Part shown: one piece after another, positions 366 to 35,565 of the stretch
Layout: the number at the start of each line of letters is the position of its first letter
Numbering within the stretch: the first letter of the stretch is position 1
Source of the DNA: an uncultured Candidatus Saccharibacteria bacterium
GTDB lineage: Bacteria > Patescibacteriota > Saccharimonadia > Saccharimonadales > Saccharimonadaceae
Assembly (NCBI GenBank): GCA_947166295.1
Contig: CAMVDR010000006.1
Location: 1 to 35,565 of the forward strand
Length of the DNA: 35,565 nt
Reading direction: 5' to 3'
Position numbers and translations under genes: made by a program
Notes under the pieces: generated by a model
The model's database searches: none
Told to the model about the DNA's origin: nothing
The model's input: only the letters and a program-made list of their open reading frames with translations

Positions 366-2045
366 TCAGTTAGTATTAACCATGCAGCGAACCGAGAAAC
401 CGTAGCCCCTATATCCGTAGTTATAGTAGTTTGGGTAGATGGCAGTACTAGCGAAAATGAAGCCAAAATCGCCGTTAGCATTGTAGAGTGTACTAGAACG
501 ATAGCGGCCCCAGTTGCTTAAATCGACAAGCAAGCCGCTGCTGACACGGCCGAACCGCTGATAGTATAGAGGAGCCGTACGAAGCTTATTAAAGCCATCG
601 GTAGCATAAGAACTACCCGAGCTAAATACTTCTTGAGCAGTCATCAAAGTATCGTAGGTACCCTTTGCTGGTAAATCCCAGTTCTTTGGGCAGACAGAGT
701 TGCCCCAAGTGGACCAGTTTGACGCCGCACTCGCATCATTAGTCGCAGTCGCTGCAGGCCAGTTATAGTAATTGCCAAAATGTGTATGTTGGCAGCCTGC
801 CGTATCGCCATCATTGTTGTTGGAGCAAGCTTCTAGTGAGACATAGTTAGCTTCGTTATAGGTAGAAGGGTTGGTATACCTATATCTATCACCCGCATTA
901 GCAGAGTATGGTTTATTGTAATCATCCGTCCACCTAGGCACCGTAGCGGCAGTATCACTACTCCAAACCATATCTATGGTATCAGCACGCTGGATGCCTT
1001 CACCGTCTATAGTGTTAGGTAGCCACGATACTACTCCAGTGTCTTTATCCTTACTATACCCAGTCTCTGCGGTGTATATAGTAGTTCCATATGATTCTGG
1101 GTCTATATCGCTAGTTTCAGAAGTTAAGGCTACCTCACTAGATAAGTCCAGGTCTAAGTTTTGCGTCATCCAGCAATTACCATCTTTAAGTTTGGCTACC
1201 CAATATACCTTATCGTCTCTTACGTCTATAAGTTGCATACCTTTCTCTCCATCTGTGTCTATGGATTTACATATAGTAGGTGTCATATCTTGCATCTTAA
1301 AGTAACCATTATGCATTTCTGCACCTGAAGCTATAAAGGCATCTAGCATAGTAGTGGGGATAGTATTAGATACTGCAGTAAAGTTAATGACGTTAGTATA
1401 TTCTCCACTAGGTTGAGTATTACTTGCTCTTGCTGCTATTTTAAAGTTTACTGTACTATTGGTACTATCTGCTTTTTCTGCCAACTTAATACCAGTATTG
1501 GTATACAATGGTAAACCATTATAGCCAGTGCTAGTATTATTGTAATCCCCACTAATCCAAGTAGTACCAGAGTCTAAGGAATAGCTATAGCCCCAGGTAT
1601 TATTAGTGAAGTTAGCTAGTTCTGATATGTTGGATGATAATGGAGTGAAGACATAGTTATTGTCTACTGTGCTAACTAGATTGGCTGTATTATAGCCATT
1701 ACTGTTGGTGGTATTGTTATTGTTATTATCGTTATTGCTGTTATTACTACTACTATCACTTCCTACTGTAGCATATACGTTATAGCCTTCTGCTATGTTA
1801 GTAGAAACATTTATTGTAATAGTATTACTATCTACTGCACCACCACCTGGAACTAAATTATTAATAATAAGATTATCGTTAGATAAGGATACATTGAGGG
1901 TAGAAAGGAAGGTAAAGCCTATGTTGGTGCTAGTTTGATAGCTTAATGCGGAAACATTATTATCGTTAATACAACCATTATTTATAGCCATAAAGCCAAA
2001 TAATACAGTTATAACTACTATATATAGTATATGTTGTTTCCGCAT
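366..2045 (-). CDS. FISUMP-domain secreted surface protein (559 aa)
   Basis: Predicted secreted protein. I chose ATG 2045 because GCGAGGT lies about 10 nt upstream; a longer GTG start at 2075 would put that ribosome binding site inside the coding region. A hydrophobic signal segment covers about residues 3-22. Next comes a beta-rich domain with Asn/Ser runs that ends near SGEYTNVINFTAV. The C-terminal half matches the Fibrobacter succinogenes major paralogous domain family (FISUMP): VYWVAKLKDGNCWMTQNLDL, a Cys pair in ACSNNNDGDTAGCQH, VCPKNWDLP, and a terminal GFSVRCM. The binding target is unknown. The 3' part (about 366-1000) is rich in CpG and the 5' part almost lacks it. Transcription is governed by the structured leader at 2082-2269. 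Confidence 0.8.
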   Translation of the reverse strand: MRKQHILYIVVITVLFGFMAINNGCINDNNVSALSYQTSTNIGFTFLSTLNVSLSNDNLIINNLVPGGGAVDSNTITINVSTNIAEGYNVYATVGSDSSSNNSNNDNNNNNTTNSNGYNTANLVSTVDNNYVFTPLSSNISELANFTNNTWGYSYSLDSGTTWISGDYNNTSTGYNGLPLYTNTGIKLAEKADSTNSTVNFKIAARASNTQPSGEYTNVINFTAVSNTIPTTMLDAFIASGAEMHNGYFKMQDMTPTICKSIDTDGEKGMQLIDVRDDKVYWVAKLKDGNCWMTQNLDLDLSSEVALTSETSDIDPESYGTTIYTAETGYSKDKDTGVVSWLPNTIDGEGIQRADTIDMVWSSDTAATVPRWTDDYNKPYSANAGDRYRYTNPSTYNEANYVSLEACSNNNDGDTAGCQHTHFGNYYNWPAATATNDASAASNWSTWGNSVCPKNWDLPAKGTYDTLMTAQEVFSSGSSYATDGFNKLRTAPLYYQRFGRVSSGLLVDLSNWGRYRSSTLYNANGDFGFIFASTAIYPNYYNYGYRGYGFSVRCMVNTN

Positions 2046-2081
2046 CTTTACTTTTACCTCGCTTAGAGTTTTCACTTAGGA

Positions 2082-2269
2082 TGCGGTGCCATCTTTATAA
2101 TTTATGAAAAGGCGTATACAAAAATGGCACCGCAAGGGGTGCAACAATCTTACAATTCTTACCGGTGTACAGTTAGAATTCTTAGACTACCTCGCGGCGC
2201 CATTCTAGAACCCTAACAATACACTAGATATGAAAACATCCGGTAGCTTATAATTGTAAAATTGTTGCA
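2082..2269 (-). ncRNA. Structured 5' leader RNA of FISUMP gene, copy 1
   Basis: Elements in transcript order: arm A (2269-2252) TGCAACAATTTTACAATT, a 7-nt spacer, inner arm ACCGG (2244-2240), arm B (2204-2190) AATGGCGCCGCGAGG, inner arm CCGGT, arm A' (2157-2140), arm B' (2137-2123) CCTTGCGGTGCCATT running into five Ts, then element C (2092-2082) ATGGCACCGCA. A pairs with A' over 18 bp with one G-U. B pairs with B' over 15 bp with two G-U. C pairs with B' over 11 bp without mismatch. The B/B' hairpin plus U-run resembles an intrinsic terminator. The Shine-Dalgarno site follows C. The same architecture with a different A/A' sequence precedes the FISUMP gene at 20473. No known riboswitch class is recognised. 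Confidence 0.65.
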
Positions 2270-2274
2270 TTTTA

Positions 2275-2280
2275 ATTATA
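2275..2280 (-). promoter_or_regulatory. -10 box of FISUMP leader copy 1
   Basis: TATAAT on the minus strand; the predicted start is at the first base of leader arm A. The sequence around it (GTGTGG before, TAAAATGC after) resembles the copy upstream of 20473. The -35 match (TTGCGT, 18-nt spacer) is weak. Confidence 0.55.
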
Positions 2281-2337: not shown

Positions 2338-4362
2338 TTATTCAAACACCGGCAAGTCATCCGGAAACGGATCAAAATCCCCACCAGAAAAATCATCAAA
2401 ATCATCTTCGGAAAAATCCTTAAATCCGTCCCCATCTTCGTCTTTGTATCCCGCCGAACCATACGGGTTATATCCTAGTTCCGTTAGAAACCTTGACGGC
2501 ATATTATAATTCCGACTTCCATATGAATATCTGCTTGCTGCATAAGTCAAGGACAATTTTCGCATCGCCCGCGTCATCCCCACATACGCCAAGCGTCGTT
2601 CTTCTTCCAGCCCCGCCTCATCTTCACTAGCTCGGCCACTCGGGAATAAACCTTCTTCCATCCCCACCATAAACACCACCGGAAATTCTAATCCCTTTGC
2701 CGCATGCAAAGTCATTAAAGTCACCGAATTCTTCGCTACACTTTCATCCGCACTAGACATCAGGCTTGCATCCGCCAAAAAATCTTCCAGCTTATCATAA
2801 GCCGCCGCGTTACTTACTAAGACTTCCAAGTTCGCCATCCGCTCTTCACCGCTTGGCGTGCCATCATCCGTCAAAGTTTTAAAATCAAAATATTCAATCA
2901 CCTTTTTTACAATTTCACCAGGATTATCATCTAATGAAATTTTTTTTAGAAAATTCACCAATTTTCCAAATCCATTCTTTGCTTTTGCTGCGCTTAAAAC
3001 TTCTAGAATATCCGGATTTTTCAAAGGTTCATCATCTGGTAGTGCATCAATCGCCATCAAAATTTTACCTAACGACACTTCGCCCACTCCAGAAATCACA
3101 TTTTTTACCACGCGCTCCAAACTCACTTTGTCGCGCCCACTAATTAATAATTTCAAAATCGCCAGTACATCTTTTACTTCCTTACGATCATAAAATCTCA
3201 CACCACCCACAATCTTATACGGAATATGCATATTAATAAACGCTTTTTCAAAAGTATACGATTGTGCGTTCGTCCGATATAGCACCGCAAAATCACTATA
3301 ATTCGGATACTGCCTCTGCATATTCATAATTTTAAGTGCTACATAGTTTGCTTCTTCTGTTTCATCACGCAAAGATTCAATCTCTACTGGCTCACCATTC
3401 CCAATTTCCGTAAACAAAGTTTTATCCGTCCGCGTTTTATTTTTATTAATTATTTTTTGAGACGCAGCCAATATGCAACCAGTAGAACGGTAATTCTGCT
3501 CTAATTTAATAACTTTTGCGCCCGGATAATCACGCTCAAAATTCAAAATATTTGTGAAATCCGCTCCTCGCCACGAATAAATAGACTGCCAATCGTCCCC
3601 CACCACACAAATGTTTTTCTGCTCATTTACCAAAAGTTTCACAATATTATATTGCACCACGTTAGTGTCCTGATATTCGTCTATCAAAATATGCTTAAAC
3701 TTTTCTTGCCACTTTTTTCGTACACTTGGATTTTTTTGCAAAAGTTCCAATTCTCTCAAAAGCAGATCATCAAAATCTAGTGCCCCAGCTTTAGTTTTTT
3801 CTTCTTCATATCGCCGAAAAACTTTTGCAATGTTATGCTGATTCGGATATAACGCCCCCGCCGCATATTCGTCTGGCCCATTACCTTGATTTTTCTCGCT
3901 TGAAATAATTGCCTGGATAGATTTCGGTTTCAAATTTTTATTATCTGTTAATTTTAGATCTTTTAAAATGCGCTTTATCAAAGAAACCTGATCATCCGCA
4001 TCATATATTACAAAGTTTCTGTCCAACCCAGCCGCATCTGCTTCAATCCGCAAAATTCGCACCGCAATTCCATGAAAAGTTCCCATATACGGCATAAATG
4101 AGCGCGGCGGATCAATTTCTCCATCAGCACCCGGTTCTAATATCCCCCACAATCTTACTCGCATCTCGTTTGCGGCCTTATTAGTAAACGTTACTGCTAA
4201 AATGTTACTTGGCATCACACCATGAGCTATCAAATTCGCAATCCGGTGTGTCAAAGTCTTCGTTTTACCAGATCCCGCACCAGCAAGTATCAAAAGCGGC
4301 CCAGATAAAGTCTCTACCGCTTCTTTTTGCGCCGGGTTCAAACCTCCTAGAATCGTATCCAT
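2338..4362 (-). CDS. pcrA: UvrD/PcrA-type superfamily 1A DNA helicase
   Basis: ATP-dependent 3'-5' DNA helicase of the UvrD/Rep/PcrA family, expected to act in nucleotide excision repair and replication-fork maintenance. Visible motifs: Q-motif region LNPAQKEAV at the N-terminus, Walker A GAGSGKT (residues 28-34), motif II IDEYQDTN, VVGDDWQSIYSWRGAD, motif IV LEQNYRST, motif V TLHAAKGLEFPVVF and motif VI EERRLAYVGMTRA. At 674 aa it is slightly shorter than typical PcrA. The tail is strongly acidic (repeated DD/DF) in place of the usual C-terminal Tudor-like region. It starts leaderless (-10 TATAAT 6 nt before ATG) and is divergent from the MurA fusion gene. pcrA versus uvrD cannot be separated by sequence alone. 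Confidence 0.93.
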   Translation of the reverse strand: MDTILGGLNPAQKEAVETLSGPLLILAGAGSGKTKTLTHRIANLIAHGVMPSNILAVTFTNKAANEMRVRLWGILEPGADGEIDPPRSFMPYMGTFHGIAVRILRIEADAAGLDRNFVIYDADDQVSLIKRILKDLKLTDNKNLKPKSIQAIISSEKNQGNGPDEYAAGALYPNQHNIAKVFRRYEEEKTKAGALDFDDLLLRELELLQKNPSVRKKWQEKFKHILIDEYQDTNVVQYNIVKLLVNEQKNICVVGDDWQSIYSWRGADFTNILNFERDYPGAKVIKLEQNYRSTGCILAASQKIINKNKTRTDKTLFTEIGNGEPVEIESLRDETEEANYVALKIMNMQRQYPNYSDFAVLYRTNAQSYTFEKAFINMHIPYKIVGGVRFYDRKEVKDVLAILKLLISGRDKVSLERVVKNVISGVGEVSLGKILMAIDALPDDEPLKNPDILEVLSAAKAKNGFGKLVNFLKKISLDDNPGEIVKKVIEYFDFKTLTDDGTPSGEERMANLEVLVSNAAAYDKLEDFLADASLMSSADESVAKNSVTLMTLHAAKGLEFPVVFMVGMEEGLFPSGRASEDEAGLEEERRLAYVGMTRAMRKLSLTYAASRYSYGSRNYNMPSRFLTELGYNPYGSAGYKDEDGDGFKDFSEDDFDDFSGGDFDPFPDDLPVFE

Positions 4363-4368
4363 CCTACG

Positions 4369-4374
4369 ATTATA
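4369..4374 (-). promoter_or_regulatory. -10 box of helicase gene
   Basis: TATAAT on the minus strand, 6 nt before ATG 4362. It sits back to back with the promoter of the gene at 4423. Confidence 0.6.
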
Positions 4375-4409
4375 TCATATTCTAGCTTTTCAAAATATTC
4401 ATCCTGTGA

Positions 4410-4415
4410 TATAAT
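4410..4415 (+). promoter_or_regulatory. -10 box of HTH-MurA gene
   Basis: TATAAT 7 nt before ATG 4423, preceded by TGTGA as a partial extended -10. The TTTTCA at 4387-4392 is a weak -35 at 17-nt spacing. A leaderless start is implied. Confidence 0.6.
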
Positions 4416-4422
4416 TATCCTC

Positions 4423-5973
4423 ATGAAAAAGCCTAAGACTTATCAACAAGTTATCGGTGAAACCGTAGAACACATGCGTATCAAAAAAGGTTGGACTCAA
4501 GACGAGCTTGCCAAAGCCGTCGGCTCTTCTCAATCCGCCATTCATCGTATCGAAAAAGGCGGCCAAAACATTTCCTTAGAAATGATTAAAAAACTCTCTG
4601 AAGCCTTAGGCAACCAAATTCTCTCTATCAACGATTCCGTTTCTCAAAGTTTTCGCATCCGTGGCGGCAAAGAACTTTCCGGCGAAATTACCGTCAACAC
4701 ATCAAAAAATGCCGCCGTTGGTCTGCTTTGTGCAGCTTTACTTAACGAAGGCCGCACAGTACTCCACCGTGTAGCTCGTATCGAAGAAGTCTTTCGCATT
4801 ATTGAAGTTTTAGAATCTATCGGCGTTAAATGCCATTGGCAAAATCGCCATCGCGATCTAGAAATTATATCACCTCGCGAATTAAAACTAGACAAAATGG
4901 ATATCGAAGCCGCTCGCCGCACTCGTTCTATCATTATGTTTTTGGGGCCGCTTTTGCACCGTTTCGCAAAATTCCAACTCCCCTACGCTGGTGGCTGCTC
5001 TCTAGGTACGCGCACCGTAGAACCTCATCTTAAGGCTTTAGAAACTTTCGGTCTTAAAGTGGACGCCGAAAGCAATAGTGGTTTTTACGAAGTAGAAGTA
5101 GATCAACGTATCCTACACGACAAAGAAGATCGTTACATTGTCCTTACCGAACGCGGCGACACTGTCACGGAAAATGTCTTAATGGCCGCCGCTCTCTTCC
5201 CAGGCAAAACTACCATCATTGGCGCCTCGCCAAATTATATGGTACAAGATGTTTGTTTCTTCTTAGAAAAACTTGGTGTTAAAATCACCGGCATCGGCAC
5301 CACCACACTTACTATTTATGGTCGCCCTCGCATCAATGTAGATATCGATTACCATCTTTCCGAAGATCCTATCGAAGCCATGTCTTTCATCGCTGCAGCC
5401 CTCGTCACCAATTCAGAAATCACCCTACTTCGTGCGCCAATCGAATTTCTAGAAATTGAACTAGAAGTCCTAAAAAACATGCACGCCAAATTTGAAAAAT
5501 CCCCTGAATATACTTCCATGAACGGTCGTACACGTCTAGTAGATCTTACCATCAAAAAATCCCAGCTCGTAGCCCCCGTAGACAAAATCCACCCTATGCC
5601 TTTCCCTGGTCTAAACATAGATAATTTGCCATTCTTTTCCGTAATCGCCGCCGTAGCCGAAGGTCGCACCCTCATCCATGATTGGGTTTTTGAAAATCGC
5701 GCCGTCTATACTACTGAACTCGCTAATCTCAACGTCAAAGTGGAGCTTCTAGATGCCCACCGTGTTTACATTGAAGGCCCCACCAATTGGCGCTCAGCTG
5801 AACTTGTCGCTCCGCAAGCTCTCCGTCCGGCGGTCGTTATCCTAATTGGCATGCTTGCCGCACCAGGCACTTCAATCTTACGCAATATTTATCCCATCAA
5901 TCGCGGCTATCAAGATTTCGCCGCCCGCCTTCGCCACCTTGGTGCCGATATCGTACCGCTTACTGGTATTTAA
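4423..5973 (+). CDS. murA: XRE-type HTH fused to MurA-like UDP-GlcNAc 1-carboxyvinyltransferase
   Basis: MurA transfers enolpyruvate from PEP to UDP-N-acetylglucosamine, the first committed step of peptidoglycan synthesis, in the cytoplasm. Residues about 77-510 show the EPSP-synthase fold. SKNAAVGLLCAAL carries the active-site Lys, and GGCSLGTRTVEPH has Cys at the position of the catalytic Cys (E. coli Cys115). Later come TENVLMAAALFPG and a terminal GYQDFAARLRHLGA. Unusually, residues about 8-68 form a Cro/CI-type helix-turn-helix (MRIKKGWTQDELAKAVGSSQ, then SAIHRIEKG). The 516-aa length is about 95 aa over normal MurA, matching the added domain. The fusion is in one frame and the start is leaderless. 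The 3' end overlaps the convergent pgk by 4 bp. The HTH may bind DNA or serve only as an interaction module. Confidence 0.9.
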   Translation: MKKPKTYQQVIGETVEHMRIKKGWTQDELAKAVGSSQSAIHRIEKGGQNISLEMIKKLSEALGNQILSINDSVSQSFRIRGGKELSGEITVNTSKNAAVGLLCAALLNEGRTVLHRVARIEEVFRIIEVLESIGVKCHWQNRHRDLEIISPRELKLDKMDIEAARRTRSIIMFLGPLLHRFAKFQLPYAGGCSLGTRTVEPHLKALETFGLKVDAESNSGFYEVEVDQRILHDKEDRYIVLTERGDTVTENVLMAAALFPGKTTIIGASPNYMVQDVCFFLEKLGVKITGIGTTTLTIYGRPRINVDIDYHLSEDPIEAMSFIAAALVTNSEITLLRAPIEFLEIELEVLKNMHAKFEKSPEYTSMNGRTRLVDLTIKKSQLVAPVDKIHPMPFPGLNIDNLPFFSVIAAVAEGRTLIHDWVFENRAVYTTELANLNVKVELLDAHRVYIEGPTNWRSAELVAPQALRPAVVILIGMLAAPGTSILRNIYPINRGYQDFAARLRHLGADIVPLTGI

Positions 5974-7028
5974 TTCTTCTTGACCACTTCTAATCCCGGC
6001 AATTTCTTACCAGCCAAAAACTCTAGTGCTGCTCCACCACCAGTAGATACTAGCGAATATTTCAAATTCGGATGATCCTTCATCAAATTTTCTACAAACC
6101 CAGTCGTATCACCACCGCATATCACCGTTTCGGCATCTTCCTTTTCACCAATCATTTCTGCTACTATCGTAGAAGCCGTAGCATAAGCCGGGTCCTCCGC
6201 CTTGCCAAGTAATCCGTTCCAAATAATCGTTTTGGCATCAGCAATAAATCCTGTGATTTTTACTGTAGCAAATGGCCCTATATCCAACTTTGCACCATTT
6301 GTATCCTCGTCAAAATCTTCCGCCACATATATATTATTACCACCCACATATCCATCCGCCGCAATCTTGCCACCCACTGCAATTTGCCCAGCTTTATTGG
6401 CAAATTTTTCAATCAGTGGTTTTTTGTCATCTACTTTTGCCCCGCCAATTATCAAAAGTACTGGTTTTTCTGGGTTCTTTGCTACTTTTTCCAAATTTAT
6501 CACTTCTTTTTCTAGCAATAATCCCATATACACCGGCAAAAACTTCGCCACCGCATCTGTAGATGCATGCGCTCTGTGTGCTACCGCAAACCCATCCTGC
6601 ACATACACCTCTGCGTCTACCGCATCAATAATATTCTTAATAAAATCCGCAGAATTTCCTTCTTCACCAGCATCAAATCGCAAATTTTCTAAAAGCACAA
6701 TTTTAGCATCATCAACCTCGCCTATTTTTTCGCCTTTTTCCGGCAGTAAGCAAAAACTAATCTTCTGTCCAGGCAGTAGCTTACGTAATTCTTCTGCCAC
6801 AGGTGCCAAAGTAAGCTCTGGATTATTTTTTCCTTCCGGCCGCCCAAGATGCGAAATCAAAATAATTTTCTTTGTCCCAGCTTCCAAGAGATAGCTCAAA
6901 GTCGGCAAACTCGCCCGAATTCTTAAATCGTCCGTGATTTTACCATCTTTCATCGGCACGTTATAATCTACTCGTACCAATACCACTTTATCTTTTACGT
7001 CCGCATCGCGAACCGTTAAATAACCCAT
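5970..7028 (-). CDS. pgk: Phosphoglycerate kinase
   Basis: Glycolytic enzyme converting 1,3-bisphosphoglycerate and ADP to 3-phosphoglycerate and ATP. Visible signatures: RVDYNVPMKDGKITDDLRI near the N-terminus, SHLGRPEG, ENLRFDAGEEGN, the nucleotide-binding GGAKVDDK, and STGGGAALEFLAGK near the C-terminus. At 352 aa it is shorter than the usual 390-400. The normally conserved WNGPMGVFE stretch reads WNGLLGKAEDPAY, a noticeable departure. It lies 8 nt after pyk with AGGAGG before ATG 7028, so it is the second gene of a pyk-pgk operon. It overlaps the convergent MurA fusion by 4 bp at its 3' end. Confidence 0.93.
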   Translation of the reverse strand: MGYLTVRDADVKDKVVLVRVDYNVPMKDGKITDDLRIRASLPTLSYLLEAGTKKIILISHLGRPEGKNNPELTLAPVAEELRKLLPGQKISFCLLPEKGEKIGEVDDAKIVLLENLRFDAGEEGNSADFIKNIIDAVDAEVYVQDGFAVAHRAHASTDAVAKFLPVYMGLLLEKEVINLEKVAKNPEKPVLLIIGGAKVDDKKPLIEKFANKAGQIAVGGKIAADGYVGGNNIYVAEDFDEDTNGAKLDIGPFATVKITGFIADAKTIIWNGLLGKAEDPAYATASTIVAEMIGEKEDAETVICGGDTTGFVENLMKDHPNLKYSLVSTGGGAALEFLAGKKLPGLEVVKKN

Positions 7029-11840: not shown

Positions 11841-12221
11841 TTAGTCGCTTAAATAGCTTTGAATATCGATTTTCGATTCGTAATCCGTATATTTACCATT
11901 TAACACATCTTGGAAGTACTGACACTGTTTATCAGTGAGTTCATCGCCATCTTTAGTGTAGGTATTGTCGCAGTTGTCCTGTTGCGAATTAACTACTTCC
12001 CTAACTATACTACCAACAATAACTTGTGGTACTAGCCAAAAAACGCACACTAAAAAGCAAACCATCGGGAAAAAGATAAAAAAGCCAGTCTTGTCAGCTT
12101 TCTCTTTGAACTCTTTTTTGCTTATACCACGATTACTACACACCCATTCGCGTAGAATAGCCCATAGAAACCACGTTATACCTATCGTTAGTAAAAAGCT
12201 AAGAATTACATTTATCCACAT
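11841..12221 (-). CDS. Small two-TM island membrane protein (126 aa)
   Basis: Unrecognised. I place the start at ATG 12221 because AGAGGAAA lies just upstream. A longer reading frame from 12401 would run through the structured RNA and is rejected. Predicted helices are residues about 2-26 (MWINVILSFLLTIGITWF...) and 46-70 (FFIFFPMVCFLVCVFWLV), joined by a short charged loop (NRGISKKEFKEKADKT). The ~55-residue C-terminal tail is acidic with two Cys (DNCDNT, KQCQYF). It belongs to the island and lies downstream of the attenuator-like RNA at 12256-12394, which may control it. It converges with the tandem cloverleaf RNA. Confidence 0.65.
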   Translation of the reverse strand: MWINVILSFLLTIGITWFLWAILREWVCSNRGISKKEFKEKADKTGFFIFFPMVCFLVCVFWLVPQVIVGSIVREVVNSQQDNCDNTYTKDGDELTDKQCQYFQDVLNGKYTDYESKIDIQSYLSD

Positions 12222-20218: not shown

Positions 20219-20248
20219 TTGTCAATTAAATTATTTTTATGCTACAAT
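20219..20248 (+). promoter_or_regulatory. Proximal promoter of FISUMP leader copy 2
   Basis: TTGTCA (20219-20224), 18-nt spacer, TACAAT (20243-20248). The predicted start coincides with the first bases of leader arm A (20253), as at the copy 1 locus. Confidence 0.6.
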
Positions 20249-20252
20249 TAAA

Positions 20253-20435
20253 GTGCTATATTTAATCGTTTGAGTGAAACACTAGTACGTTTTTATAATT
20301 AGTTATAATCACGTAAATTACAATGGCGCCGCAAGGCATCAATTGTTTGCGTGGTTATTGCTAGTGTAAACGATTAGATATAGCACCCCTTGCGGTGCCA
20401 TTTTTGTTAATCCCCATTAATATAGTGGCACCACA
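20253..20435 (+). ncRNA. Structured 5' leader RNA of FISUMP gene, copy 2
   Basis: Arm A (20253-20271) GTGCTATATTTAATCGTTT, 7-nt bulge GAGTGAA, inner ACACTAG (20279-20285), arm B (20322-20336) AATGGCGCCGCAAGG, inner CTAGTGT (20361-20367), arm A' (20368-20386), arm B' (20388-20402) CCTTGCGGTGCCATT with a five-T run, and element C (20425-20435) GTGGCACCACA. A/A' pairs over 19 bp, the inner stem over 7 bp and B/B' over 15 bp. C can pair with B' at 10 of 11 positions. C also sits inside a local AATCCCCAT/ATGGGGGTT hairpin. The layout matches copy 1 while the A/A' sequences are unrelated. Confidence 0.65.
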
Positions 20436-20472
20436 TGGGGGTTTAAGTAAACAATATAAGTGAGGTTAAAAG

Positions 20473-22113
20473 ATGGGCCACAAAGTAAAACAATCTTTAA
20501 TGAGTAGTAGAATAGATTTCTTCTACTATGCTTTCCGTAATATATTGTTAGTTTCTGTTCCTCTTCTTATCTTTTCTATCTTTGTTTTCACTATTCCTCA
20601 TTCATCTGCAGAAATAAGTAGTAGTGCAGACAATGTCCAATTAGTCTTATCTACTTCATGTACAGTAAATGCAGTAGTTACATCAGAACATACAGTGAGT
20701 CTTAATGGTGGACAATTAGATAATAATGTAGGTAATACTAAACTCAGTGCTTATTGTAATGATAATAATGGTTATAGTATCTATGCAGTAGGTAGTAGTA
20801 ATGATATAGATGGTAATACAGATCTAATCTATAATAATGGATTTAGCGATAGTTATAACATTAGAACTGGAGTATATGATAGTAGTAATGTAGCTAATCC
20901 ATCATCCTGGGCTATGAAACTAACCGCCGGAACTGGTACTGGCATAGATCCAGTTACTGGAGAAAGTGTACCTACTACTCCACCCACTATATTAAATGGC
21001 TACGATAACTACAGTGCTATACCAAACGTCTATACCCAAGTAGCTAAAAGAACCTCAGGTACTAATATGATAACGGATAGTGACGCTTCAGGATCATATC
21101 TAAACACTACTTATCAGATTTATGCTAATTCCTATCAGCCTGCCGGTACCTATAATGGTAAAGTTAAATATGCTATAGTGCATCCAAATAGCAGCCATAA
21201 TACCATCCCAGACTTAGATACCGCTTTTGCTGTAGCTGGCAAAATGAAAGTCTATGAAGAAGGCGGTAATTCATATTATGCTATGCAGGATATGGATGCG
21301 GGGATTTGCAGTATGGTCGCTAACGACGGCGAAAGTACTTCTACACAATTAGCAGATCTTAGGGATAATAAGCTTTACTGGATAACCAAGCTAAAAGATG
21401 GACATTGCTGGATGACGCAAAATCTGGACACAGACATTAACCCTTCTATTAGTTTTAATTCTAACAACACAGATCTGAATGTAGCCTATGACTCTAACAC
21501 TGGGCAATATGCAGAATACAATGATGGATATACGGAAAGTAATGGAGTAATATACTATACTCCAGCTAGCACAGCTACTACTATAGACTTTACTGGTAAT
21601 AATATTTCTGGTTGGCAGGACAACAATACTACACCATATAGTGCTAATAAGACAGATAGCACAAAAACAGGCCATGCTTCACTAGGTAATTACTATAACT
21701 GGACTGCAGCTATAGCATCTAATAACTCTTCTTCATTAACACAAGATACATTAAGTGATATATCTAAAAATCCTAAGAACTCTATATGCCCTAAAGGATG
21801 GAGACTTCCTACTATATCCAGTGAGTCCGAAGCTATAGCTGGTTCTACTAATGAGTTTGGGAGGTTGAATTATTTATATAACGATAATTCCACCACTAGT
21901 CAACTCAATTTGACAATTGCTCCCTTATTCCTCGCCCAAGCTAGCATAATTATCGATGGTAGTATTCGTAATCTCGAAAGAGAGGGCCTTTATTGGTCCA
22001 GCAGTAACACCTCGCAGTACGCATATGACATAATTTTACAACCTTCCAGAGTACAAGCAAACGACATAACGAACAAAATACGTGGGGCCACCCTACGCTG
22101 CATCGCTAGATAA
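20473..22113 (+). CDS. FISUMP-domain secreted surface protein (546 aa)
   Basis: Secreted protein with GAGG 7 nt before ATG 20473. A signal segment lies at about residues 22-44 (NILLVSVPLLIFSIFVF), with likely cleavage near SSAEIS. The N-terminal beta-rich domain ends QPAGTYNGKVKYAIVHPN, like that of the other surface proteins here. The FISUMP region contains LYWITKLKDGHCWMTQNLDTDI, LGNYYNWTAAIAS, ICPKGWRLPT, LYWSSSNTS and a terminal ATLRCIAR, with conserved Cys that may pair. The last ~220 bp are richer in CpG than the rest of the gene. The stop overlaps the convergent pth by 8 bp. Expression is probably set by the structured leader upstream. Confidence 0.82.
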   Translation: MGHKVKQSLMSSRIDFFYYAFRNILLVSVPLLIFSIFVFTIPHSSAEISSSADNVQLVLSTSCTVNAVVTSEHTVSLNGGQLDNNVGNTKLSAYCNDNNGYSIYAVGSSNDIDGNTDLIYNNGFSDSYNIRTGVYDSSNVANPSSWAMKLTAGTGTGIDPVTGESVPTTPPTILNGYDNYSAIPNVYTQVAKRTSGTNMITDSDASGSYLNTTYQIYANSYQPAGTYNGKVKYAIVHPNSSHNTIPDLDTAFAVAGKMKVYEEGGNSYYAMQDMDAGICSMVANDGESTSTQLADLRDNKLYWITKLKDGHCWMTQNLDTDINPSISFNSNNTDLNVAYDSNTGQYAEYNDGYTESNGVIYYTPASTATTIDFTGNNISGWQDNNTTPYSANKTDSTKTGHASLGNYYNWTAAIASNNSSSLTQDTLSDISKNPKNSICPKGWRLPTISSESEAIAGSTNEFGRLNYLYNDNSTTSQLNLTIAPLFLAQASIIIDGSIRNLEREGLYWSSSNTSQYAYDIILQPSRVQANDITNKIRGATLRCIAR

Positions 22114-34201: not shown

Positions 34202-35565
34202 TTAATTACTCCGCATACACCGCACGGAGACCCCGCTGTACTTATTGCGGTTGTCGCTGCGAAGGGCGCTGGTACCATCGAAGTACAGGTAGTACGCGTT
34301 GCTATTATAGTTCCGAGAGCTAGACCACCAGCTGCCGACGCTGCCGACATTGCTCTGAGAGCCGGAGCCGAAGCTCCCGGTAGTAGCTAGCATCCCAGGG
34401 TTATTCCCGCTATCCAATAGCGTAGCCGCCGTAATATCGTTATATGTAGGTAAAGTCCAGTTTGCTGGGCAGATAGAGCCAAGTGAAGCATTATCTCGTG
34501 TCGTATTAGCGCAAGATGATGAACTGGATACGCCGGTCGTTGGGTTTGCCTTTGCCGCATACCAGTTATAATAATATTCATTACCTATATAGCGCATCCT
34601 AGCTTCACAATAGTGGTTTTGCGAGCTACTTGTCCAAGTAGTTTGATCTGGCAAGGTAAAAGCACCTTTAACATTAGAAGTAGACGAATCCAGAGCTGTA
34701 CCACCTTCTAGTCTCAGGTTACTCAACATATAACAATAGCTACCAAACTTTGCTACTGTATACGATTTACCATCTCTTTCATCGGTCACATTCACACCGC
34801 CAGGCGTATTTATGTCATTATATACAGGGCAATTAGCTACCGTCAAATCCTTCATCTTCGTATAAGAAGCGGTGCTAGAACTACCGTTAGCCGTTAGGGT
34901 TTCACTACCGTTTCCTACCGTATATGTAGTAGTAAGCAGTGTAGTGCTTGCCAAAGTCCCCTTAGAAGTATCTCTCGTCCATGGGGTAGTAGCGTCCAAT
35001 GTATGGTTAGCTGCTGGTACTACGGTGACAATATATTTAGTTCCCACCACGGCATTCTCAAATTTAGCTTCACCAGTACTGCCAACTGCATATTGTGGTG
35101 CATACTTATTACTACCATCTGCTACTATTACGGCATCTATATTATTCCCCGCTTTAAAAATGATAGTAGGTATCTCTGCCCACATCGCATAAAGCACTAA
35201 ATCATTCTCACCAGAAATTTGGTCTATCGTATAACTACCACCAGCTGCGTACTGGGTATTAGGACTATCACAGGTACCGCCATCTGCTACTGCGGTAGTA
35301 CACCAACCCACAAAATTATAACCACTTCTAGATGGGGCGCTACCTACTGTTACACTAGTATTTACAGTAGTAGTATTTACATTGCTAGGCATATTGGCTA
35401 CGGTGTCTTCTGTATTCTTATTGTAAGTTATAGTGTATGGTATCGGATTAGCTACTACTTGTACTACAAATGTATTTGTATAGCTTCCTTTAGGTACTTC
35501 CGTATCTACCCTAGCACCTATAGCTATATTGTAGTTATTAGCCGTGTTGGCATTGGCTGCGTCAG
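34202..35565 (-). CDS. FISUMP-domain surface protein with InlB-type repeat, 5' end missing
   Basis: The frame stays open to the right edge, so the start is outside the window; 453 aa are visible. The first visible part, YNIAIGARVDTEVPKGSYTN and on, corresponds to the end of the N-terminal domain seen in the other FISUMP proteins. An InlB B-type (Flg_new) repeat follows: YTITYNKNTEDTVANMPSNV ... SGYNFVGWCTT ... LVLYAMW. Then comes the FISUMP domain: SYTVAKFGSYCYMLSNLRLE, YNWYAAKANP, ICPANWTLPTYNDI, WWSSSRNYNSNAYYLYF and a terminal GVSVRCMRSN. The 3' ~320 bp are CpG-rich and the rest is CpG-poor. Confidence 0.82.
   Translation of the reverse strand, partial: DAANANTANNYNIAIGARVDTEVPKGSYTNTFVVQVVANPIPYTITYNKNTEDTVANMPSNVNTTTVNTSVTVGSAPSRSGYNFVGWCTTAVADGGTCDSPNTQYAAGGSYTIDQISGENDLVLYAMWAEIPTIIFKAGNNIDAVIVADGSNKYAPQYAVGSTGEAKFENAVVGTKYIVTVVPAANHTLDATTPWTRDTSKGTLASTTLLTTTYTVGNGSETLTANGSSSTASYTKMKDLTVANCPVYNDINTPGGVNVTDERDGKSYTVAKFGSYCYMLSNLRLEGGTALDSSTSNVKGAFTLPDQTTWTSSSQNHYCEARMRYIGNEYYYNWYAAKANPTTGVSSSSSCANTTRDNASLGSICPANWTLPTYNDITAATLLDSGNNPGMLATTGSFGSGSQSNVGSVGSWWSSSRNYNSNAYYLYFDGTSALRSDNRNKYSGVSVRCMRSN

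Follow-up and report, generated by a model that had tools for sequence, protein, structure and literature searches.

In ON-type transcriptional riboswitches, such as the ZTP, fluoride and pbuE adenine riboswitches, a strand of the pseudoknot or of P1 is common to the terminator. The other described systems that come closest to the locus analyzed here are the ToxI RNAs of type III toxin-antitoxin systems, the attC sites of integrons, and the pilE/pilS and vlhA surface genes of Neisseria and Mycoplasma; the features of all these systems that are used for comparison are general knowledge. The window, meaning the whole stretch of 35,565 nucleotides that was analyzed, is one whole contig of an uncultured Candidatus Saccharibacteria bacterium, and there is nothing of the contig past its right edge. 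The leaders found in it (Table 1) are members of an undescribed structured RNA family whose logic is of a known kind. They are probably cis-acting, riboswitch-like transcription attenuators in which a pseudoknot and a terminator are mutually exclusive, a reading to which a probability of roughly 0.6 is assigned and for which there are no transcript, termination or ligand data.

Table 1. Leaders in the window, their elements and the genes behind them (positions in the window; elements of the folded RNA are predicted).
Feature	Position	Strand	Basis or remark
Leader 1, promoter: TTGTCA, 18 nt, TACAAT preceded by TG	20219..20248	+	consensus scan
Leader 1, P1 5' arm (A), GTGCTATATTTAATCGTTT	20253..20271	+	at or near transcript start; sequence, fold, covariation in 36 copies
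Leader 1, P2 5' arm, ACACTAG	20279..20285	+	sequence, fold, covariation
Leader 1, P3 5' arm	20305..20316	+	closes the B-containing loop; fold, covariation
Leader 1, B, pseudoknot 5' strand, TGGCGCCGCAAGG	20324..20336	+	complementary to B'
Leader 1, P3 3' arm	20347..20358	+	fold, covariation
Leader 1, P2 3' arm, CTAGTGT	20361..20367	+	sequence, fold, covariation
Leader 1, P1 3' arm (A'), AAACGATTAGATATAGCAC	20368..20386	+	sequence, fold, covariation; final bases double as part of terminator 5' arm
Leader 1, B', pseudoknot 3' strand, CCTTGCGGTGCCA	20388..20400	+	nearly invariant genome-wide; includes terminator 3' arm
Leader 1, intrinsic-terminator-like hairpin GCACC-CCTTGC-GGTGC and U-run	20383..20405	+	predicted, -7.7 kcal/mol
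Leader 1, C element, TGGCACCACAT	20426..20436	+	possible second B' partner; sequence, C:B' permutation in diverse set
Leader 1, Shine-Dalgarno-like GTGAGGT	20460..20466	+	sequence
FISUMP surface-protein gene behind leader 1	20473..22113	+	TIGR02145, 43.6 bits (cut-off 41.65)
Leader 2, -10 box TATAAT	2275..2280	-	sequence
Leader 2, whole	2120..2269	-	sequence, block search, covariance model
Leader 2, P1: TGCAACAATTTTACAATT with AATTGTAAGATTGTTGCA	2269-2252 with 2157-2140	-	
Leader 2, B	2202-2190	-	
Leader 2, B'	2137-2125	-	
Leader 2, U-run	2124-2120	-	
Leader 2, C element, TGGCACCGCAT	2081..2091	-	sequence
Surface-protein gene behind leader 2	366..2045	-	weak FISUMP match, 32.5 bits (under cut-off 41.65)
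Leader 3, whole	12395-12253	-	P1 from 12395
Leader 3, B	12332-12321	-	
Leader 3, B'	12272-12261	-	
Leader 3, U-run	12260-12256	-	
Small membrane-type protein gene behind leader 3	11841..12221	-	no Pfam match

Leaders 1 and 2 had been proposed in an earlier sequence-only reading, which gave them the same order of elements (A, B, A', B', U-run, C and Shine-Dalgarno sequence), and on rereading of the sequence both are real and ordered as described; leader 3, which that reading overlooked, matches covariance model R2 at E 1.5e-8 and model R3 at E 2.0e-13. The predicted fold consists, in order, of P1 (about 10-19 bp, beginning at the presumed transcript start), P2 (separated from P1 in leader 1 by the bulge GAGTGAA), a small U-rich hairpin that lies on the 5' side between P2 and P3 in many members, and P3, with B in the P3 loop and B' just 3' of P1 before the U-run. 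The sequence-only reading treated B and B' as ordered blocks, which is correct as to order and understates what they are, because together they form a long pseudoknot helix of 12-13 bp. In a diverse set of leaders the end of the -10-like hexamer is usually 5-6 nt ahead of the hairpin, and in the source genome 4-6 nt; of 80 downstream start codons, 76 are no more than 81 nt from the RNA's end, with a median of 42. The structured leader is located at a fixed position between a promoter and a coding gene.

The source genome (767 kb) contains 37 copies of the leader, 36 of them with surface genes and one other. The 3' block CCTTGCGGTGCCATTTTT is present in 34 exact copies and one copy with a single mismatch, compared to none for the reversed control pattern, and each full copy has a different hairpin ahead of this block. 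Searching with a covariance model, as the sequence-only reading had proposed, recovered 36 copies in the source genome at E 7.1e-14 or better from a model built on 32 copies. In the alignment of these 36 copies P1 is paired in 97.9% of cells, with 15 of its 17 pairs changed on both sides, in keeping with the claim that the A/A' helices are unrelated in sequence yet paired; the whole structure is paired in 93.8% of cells, versus 69.6% when shuffled and 36-46% when slid. This alignment was fitted to the model, so the counts for P1-P3 are biased towards structure; B:B', which lies outside the model, is paired in 96.7% of cells. Relatives found with the first model gave rise to a second model (R2) built from other genera. 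In the diverse set the full structure is paired in 92.9% of cells versus 65.0% when shuffled, and both sides have changed in 35 of its 41 pairs; B:B', again absent from model building, is paired in 96.1%, and both sides have changed in 6 of its 12 pairs. A permutation comparing own with foreign partners of B:B' gave 22.3 for own partners versus a permuted mean of 13.7 (standard deviation 0.51), and no permutation exceeded 15.6. The covariation that had been claimed from the two leaders thus holds for P1, P2 and P3 and extends to the unmodelled B:B', all well above the shuffled and slid controls. G-U pairs far outnumber A-C oppositions (105 versus 9 in the pseudoknot, 207 versus 45 in the stems), which indicates that the transcribed strand is the functional, selected strand. 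Three copies (L001, L008, L011) have in common an insert beginning GTACTTTTGCATAATTCATTATGTTTCGGGAGCTA between the C element and the gene, about 50-230 nt past the U-run. Eight contigs of the source genome (C2, C3, C12, C14, C17, C20, C27 and C29) end just behind a leader, and with so many ending there, the genome should hold more surface-gene cassettes than the draft assembly shows.

B' doubles as the 3' arm of a predicted local terminator hairpin, the 5' arm of which overlaps the closing bases of P1. A hairpin of this kind, of -4 kcal/mol or better, is predicted in 85 of 88 leaders of the diverse set and in 32 of 33 leaders of the source genome, and there are members in which its two arms have been altered together (GACAG/CTGTC in L126, GACAACC/GGTTGTC in L128, GACGACC/GGTCGTC in L129). 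B in turn has a second covarying partner in J5', which lies on the 5' strand, between P2 and P3 (z of 7.2, versus -1.7 to 0.3 for three controls); only 29 of the 88 leaders have it in strong form, and it is not apparent in the type found in the source genome; C, beyond the U-run, is a weaker second partner of B' (permutation z of 4.2 in the diverse set). An intrinsic attenuator calls for a terminator hairpin and U-run ahead of the gene, which is what these leaders have, and a structure that competes with and excludes the terminator is provided by the predicted pairings B:B' and J5':B. If B is paired with B', so that P1 and the pseudoknot are formed, the terminator hairpin would be blocked and RNA polymerase would read into the gene; if B is held by J5', or if the fold is destabilized, B' would make the terminator and transcription would stop after about 150 nt. 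The ON signal would be a ligand or protein that stabilizes the core of P1, P3 and pseudoknot, and its identity is undetermined. In the absence of ligand data, the attenuator is most likely a ligand-binding riboswitch, and a protein-binding antiterminator is possible. The pairings are supported by the comparison of sequences; the effect on transcription, its direction and its trigger are inferred.

The main rival to the attenuator reading is that the B:B' helix, which abuts the U-run, is the terminator itself, in which case the leader would be an attenuator with weak regulation or none, or else an element for 5' stability, and would have no ligand. The near-universal local hairpin, the arms of which change together in divergent members, is difficult to reconcile with this rival, and the covariation of J5' with B points to a competing state. 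The energies favor it, the median being -20.2 kcal/mol for B:B' versus -9.2 kcal/mol for the terminator hairpin, as does an A-tract ahead of B that is able to pair with the U-run. Furthermore, one leader of the source genome (L035) has kept B:B' by compensatory change despite the loss of a predicted local terminator, so the functional part may be B:B' itself, perhaps even as terminator. The rival is considered unlikely on balance, and the reading of the leaders as switches between pseudoknot and local terminator is preferred.

Model R2 has matches in 110 of the 393 genomes sampled from the class, in 43 of 153 genera; these are lower bounds, because only eight candidates were scored per genome and the filters were strict. 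Outside the class, the phylum gave only scattered matches, four found with the second model and two more with a third; four matches were read individually, and these keep the B:B' complementarity and the U-run, for example AAGCGGCGCCCGG with CCGGGTGTCGCTT in L154. In another genus (G003) there are tandem leaders with no gene between them (L094, 256-573 of the minus strand). The named genomes in which a pattern scan found the terminator block are mostly Candidatus Saccharibacteria. Block matches labelled Uhrbacteria and Psychrobacter were rejected as family members, since the RNA model is unmatched there and the block is probably a mere terminator; a match labelled Oscillospiraceae has the full RNA, and its contig may be mis-binned. 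The terminator block was not found in viral contigs, and plasmid and phage collections contained no match to the downstream gene. Against Rfam 15, the window and 20 related loci gave only tRNAs at the gathering threshold and only chance-level matches at a relaxed threshold, and no description of this RNA was found in the literature by a search that covered few subscription journals; to this extent the earlier statement that no described RNA class has this form is upheld. The sequence-only reading had also tied the leader to FISUMP surface-protein genes. Within the window this is right for the gene at 20473, which passes the cut-off, and is not secured for the gene at 2045, which falls below it. 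The association is not specific, being confined to this genus, with other types of gene behind the leader elsewhere. The first genes across genera are FISUMP-type in 7 of 79 cases, DUF4352 proteins in 4, DNA methylases in 3 and T4SS pilins in 2, and they also include a Tsp45I-type restriction enzyme, TM2 and DUF4190 proteins, small membrane proteins and many proteins without a Pfam match. No common pathway is evident among these first genes, and they suggest no candidate ligand. The possibility that the leader marks membrane proteins generally found no support in a crude hydrophobicity test (50 of 80 genes, versus 14 of 25 background genes). A third FISUMP-like gene in the window (34202-35565, minus strand), with a Listeria-Bacteroides repeat, has its 5' end and any leader beyond the end of the contig.

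The variety of first genes bears on the possibility that the RNA is a stand-alone small RNA that ends at the U-run and acts in trans, with the gene depending for its expression on occasional read-through, the arrangement of type III toxin-antitoxin systems. Such an RNA would have a promoter and terminator of its own, as the leader does, and in the tandem pair mentioned above the promoter of the second leader comes directly after the first leader. This explanation is improbable, because the gene follows so closely in nearly all cases, the downstream genes are unrelated across genera, and P1-P3 contain no conserved stretch for pairing with a target; nor are there the tandem RNA repeats before a ToxN-like gene by which a type III toxin-antitoxin system would be recognized.

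Fifteen leader loci of the source genome have counterparts in the congener G181, with 84-100% identity of the upstream flank at 13 of them. At eight of the nine loci where both genes are readable, the gene behind the 20-bp block is non-orthologous, with its best match at a different locus; the sole readable pair that keeps a related gene is L169/L193. In the pair L175/L179, 900 of 900 bases are identical upstream and through the leader, and identity is 40% beyond the block. In G181 the window gene at 20473 is swapped, with 97% synteny restored 3 nt past the stop codon, and the exchangeable cassette at leader 1 extends from B' through the stop codon of this gene. Cassettes nearly all terminate in a motif resembling SVRC(V/I/L)AR. 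Judging from the aligned sequences, the replacement, by a different member of the gene family, spans B' to the stop codon and the rest of the RNA remains with the locus. With the leader fixed to the locus and B' moving with the gene, B' would be nearly invariant but the helices free to diverge. Identity of the leader is often only 66-76% where that of the flanks is 84-97% (15 loci, G000 versus G181), and in the pair L167/L187 both strands of the P3 helix have been replaced throughout, with P1 and P2 nearly unchanged. The comparison involves two draft assemblies only; misassembly is unlikely to explain it, because the break falls within a common block of 20 bp, which is too short for typical misassembly.

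Since cassette replacement borders the 3' block, since the helices vary in sequence and not in shape, and since the genome encodes tyrosine recombinases, the hairpin might be thought to function as DNA, as a folded recombination site like integron attC that mobilizes surface-protein cassettes. An attC site travels with its cassette; here the hairpin remains at its locus while the gene changes, the pairing holds for one strand only (with G-U far above A-C), the position of the promoter is fixed, and elsewhere a few copies of the same RNA precede unrelated genes, all of which makes a DNA site very unlikely. Ribosome-mediated attenuation through a leader peptide, for which B begins with ATGGCGCCG in leaders 1 and 2 (MAPQGINCLRGYC, MAPRGSLRILTVHR) and the window leaves both of these short frames open, is rejected, as the alignment contradicts it: the ATG start codon is not conserved, other copies having ACGGC, TTGGC or GTGGC at that position, and changes in B track its pairing with B'.

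Two reverse transcriptases are encoded in the source genome. One belongs to a diversity-generating retroelement (DGR) on contig C10 (L204), where the reverse transcriptase gene (3670-4683, minus strand) is accompanied by a template repeat downstream of it in the opposite orientation (about 3424-3632, plus strand) and by a FISUMP target gene (5731-6459, minus strand). The 3' end of the target has 24 differences from the template, 23 of them at template adenines; reverse transcriptase, template repeat and adenine-specific changes are all present. The other FISUMP genes are less similar to the template, and what similarity they have is weak and older. A second, different reverse transcriptase gene is located near a surface-protein gene on contig C13 (L203, 3911-4654, plus strand). 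In this genus, the common B/B' pair would make any cassette functional behind any leader. The leader may be a split, plug-in switch for surface variation, with a 5' RNA part fixed to the locus and a cassette-borne 3' strand of pseudoknot and terminator that doubles as the border of recombination; any cassette could then be accepted at dozens of sites under the same control, with at least one family member also diversified by the DGR; this larger proposal is tentative, its odds being somewhat below even.

If the attenuator reading is true, this is an unusually abundant regulatory RNA, with its 37 copies in 0.77 Mb and matches in roughly one in four of the genomes sampled from the class. To our knowledge, little is known about the control of gene expression in these obligate epibionts, and an RNA that is strongly supported and clearly laid out like a switch offers a direct handle on it. 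In this genus the leader precedes a large family of surface proteins that may meet the host, and the use of the pseudoknot 3' strand as the border of cassette exchange ties RNA regulation to surface variation, a link of which we know of no prior description.

The leader resembles the ZTP, fluoride and pbuE adenine riboswitches in its 5' position, its structured core, the terminator that overlaps the fold and the gene directly downstream; it differs from them in having no Rfam match, no known ligand and no common gene pathway, and in a sequence that diverges strongly while pairing is kept. Like ToxI of type III toxin-antitoxin systems, it is a pseudoknotted RNA followed by a terminator and then a gene; whereas ToxI consists of tandem repeats with one toxin family, the leader is a single copy as a rule and precedes surface proteins, methylases and others. 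With integron attC it shares hairpins conserved in shape and variable in sequence beside exchangeable gene cassettes, but its function is that of a transcribed strand, the hairpin stays at the locus, and the cassettes are dispersed rather than arrayed. Unlike the elements of a DGR, of which it is not a part, the leader RNA precedes many non-target genes. The cassettes themselves are comparable to Neisseria pilE/pilS and Mycoplasma vlhA as paralogous surface genes that are swapped as blocks with conserved borders; the difference is that here a separate promoter and leader RNA serve each site, and that the 3' strand of the leader's pseudoknot forms the 5' border.
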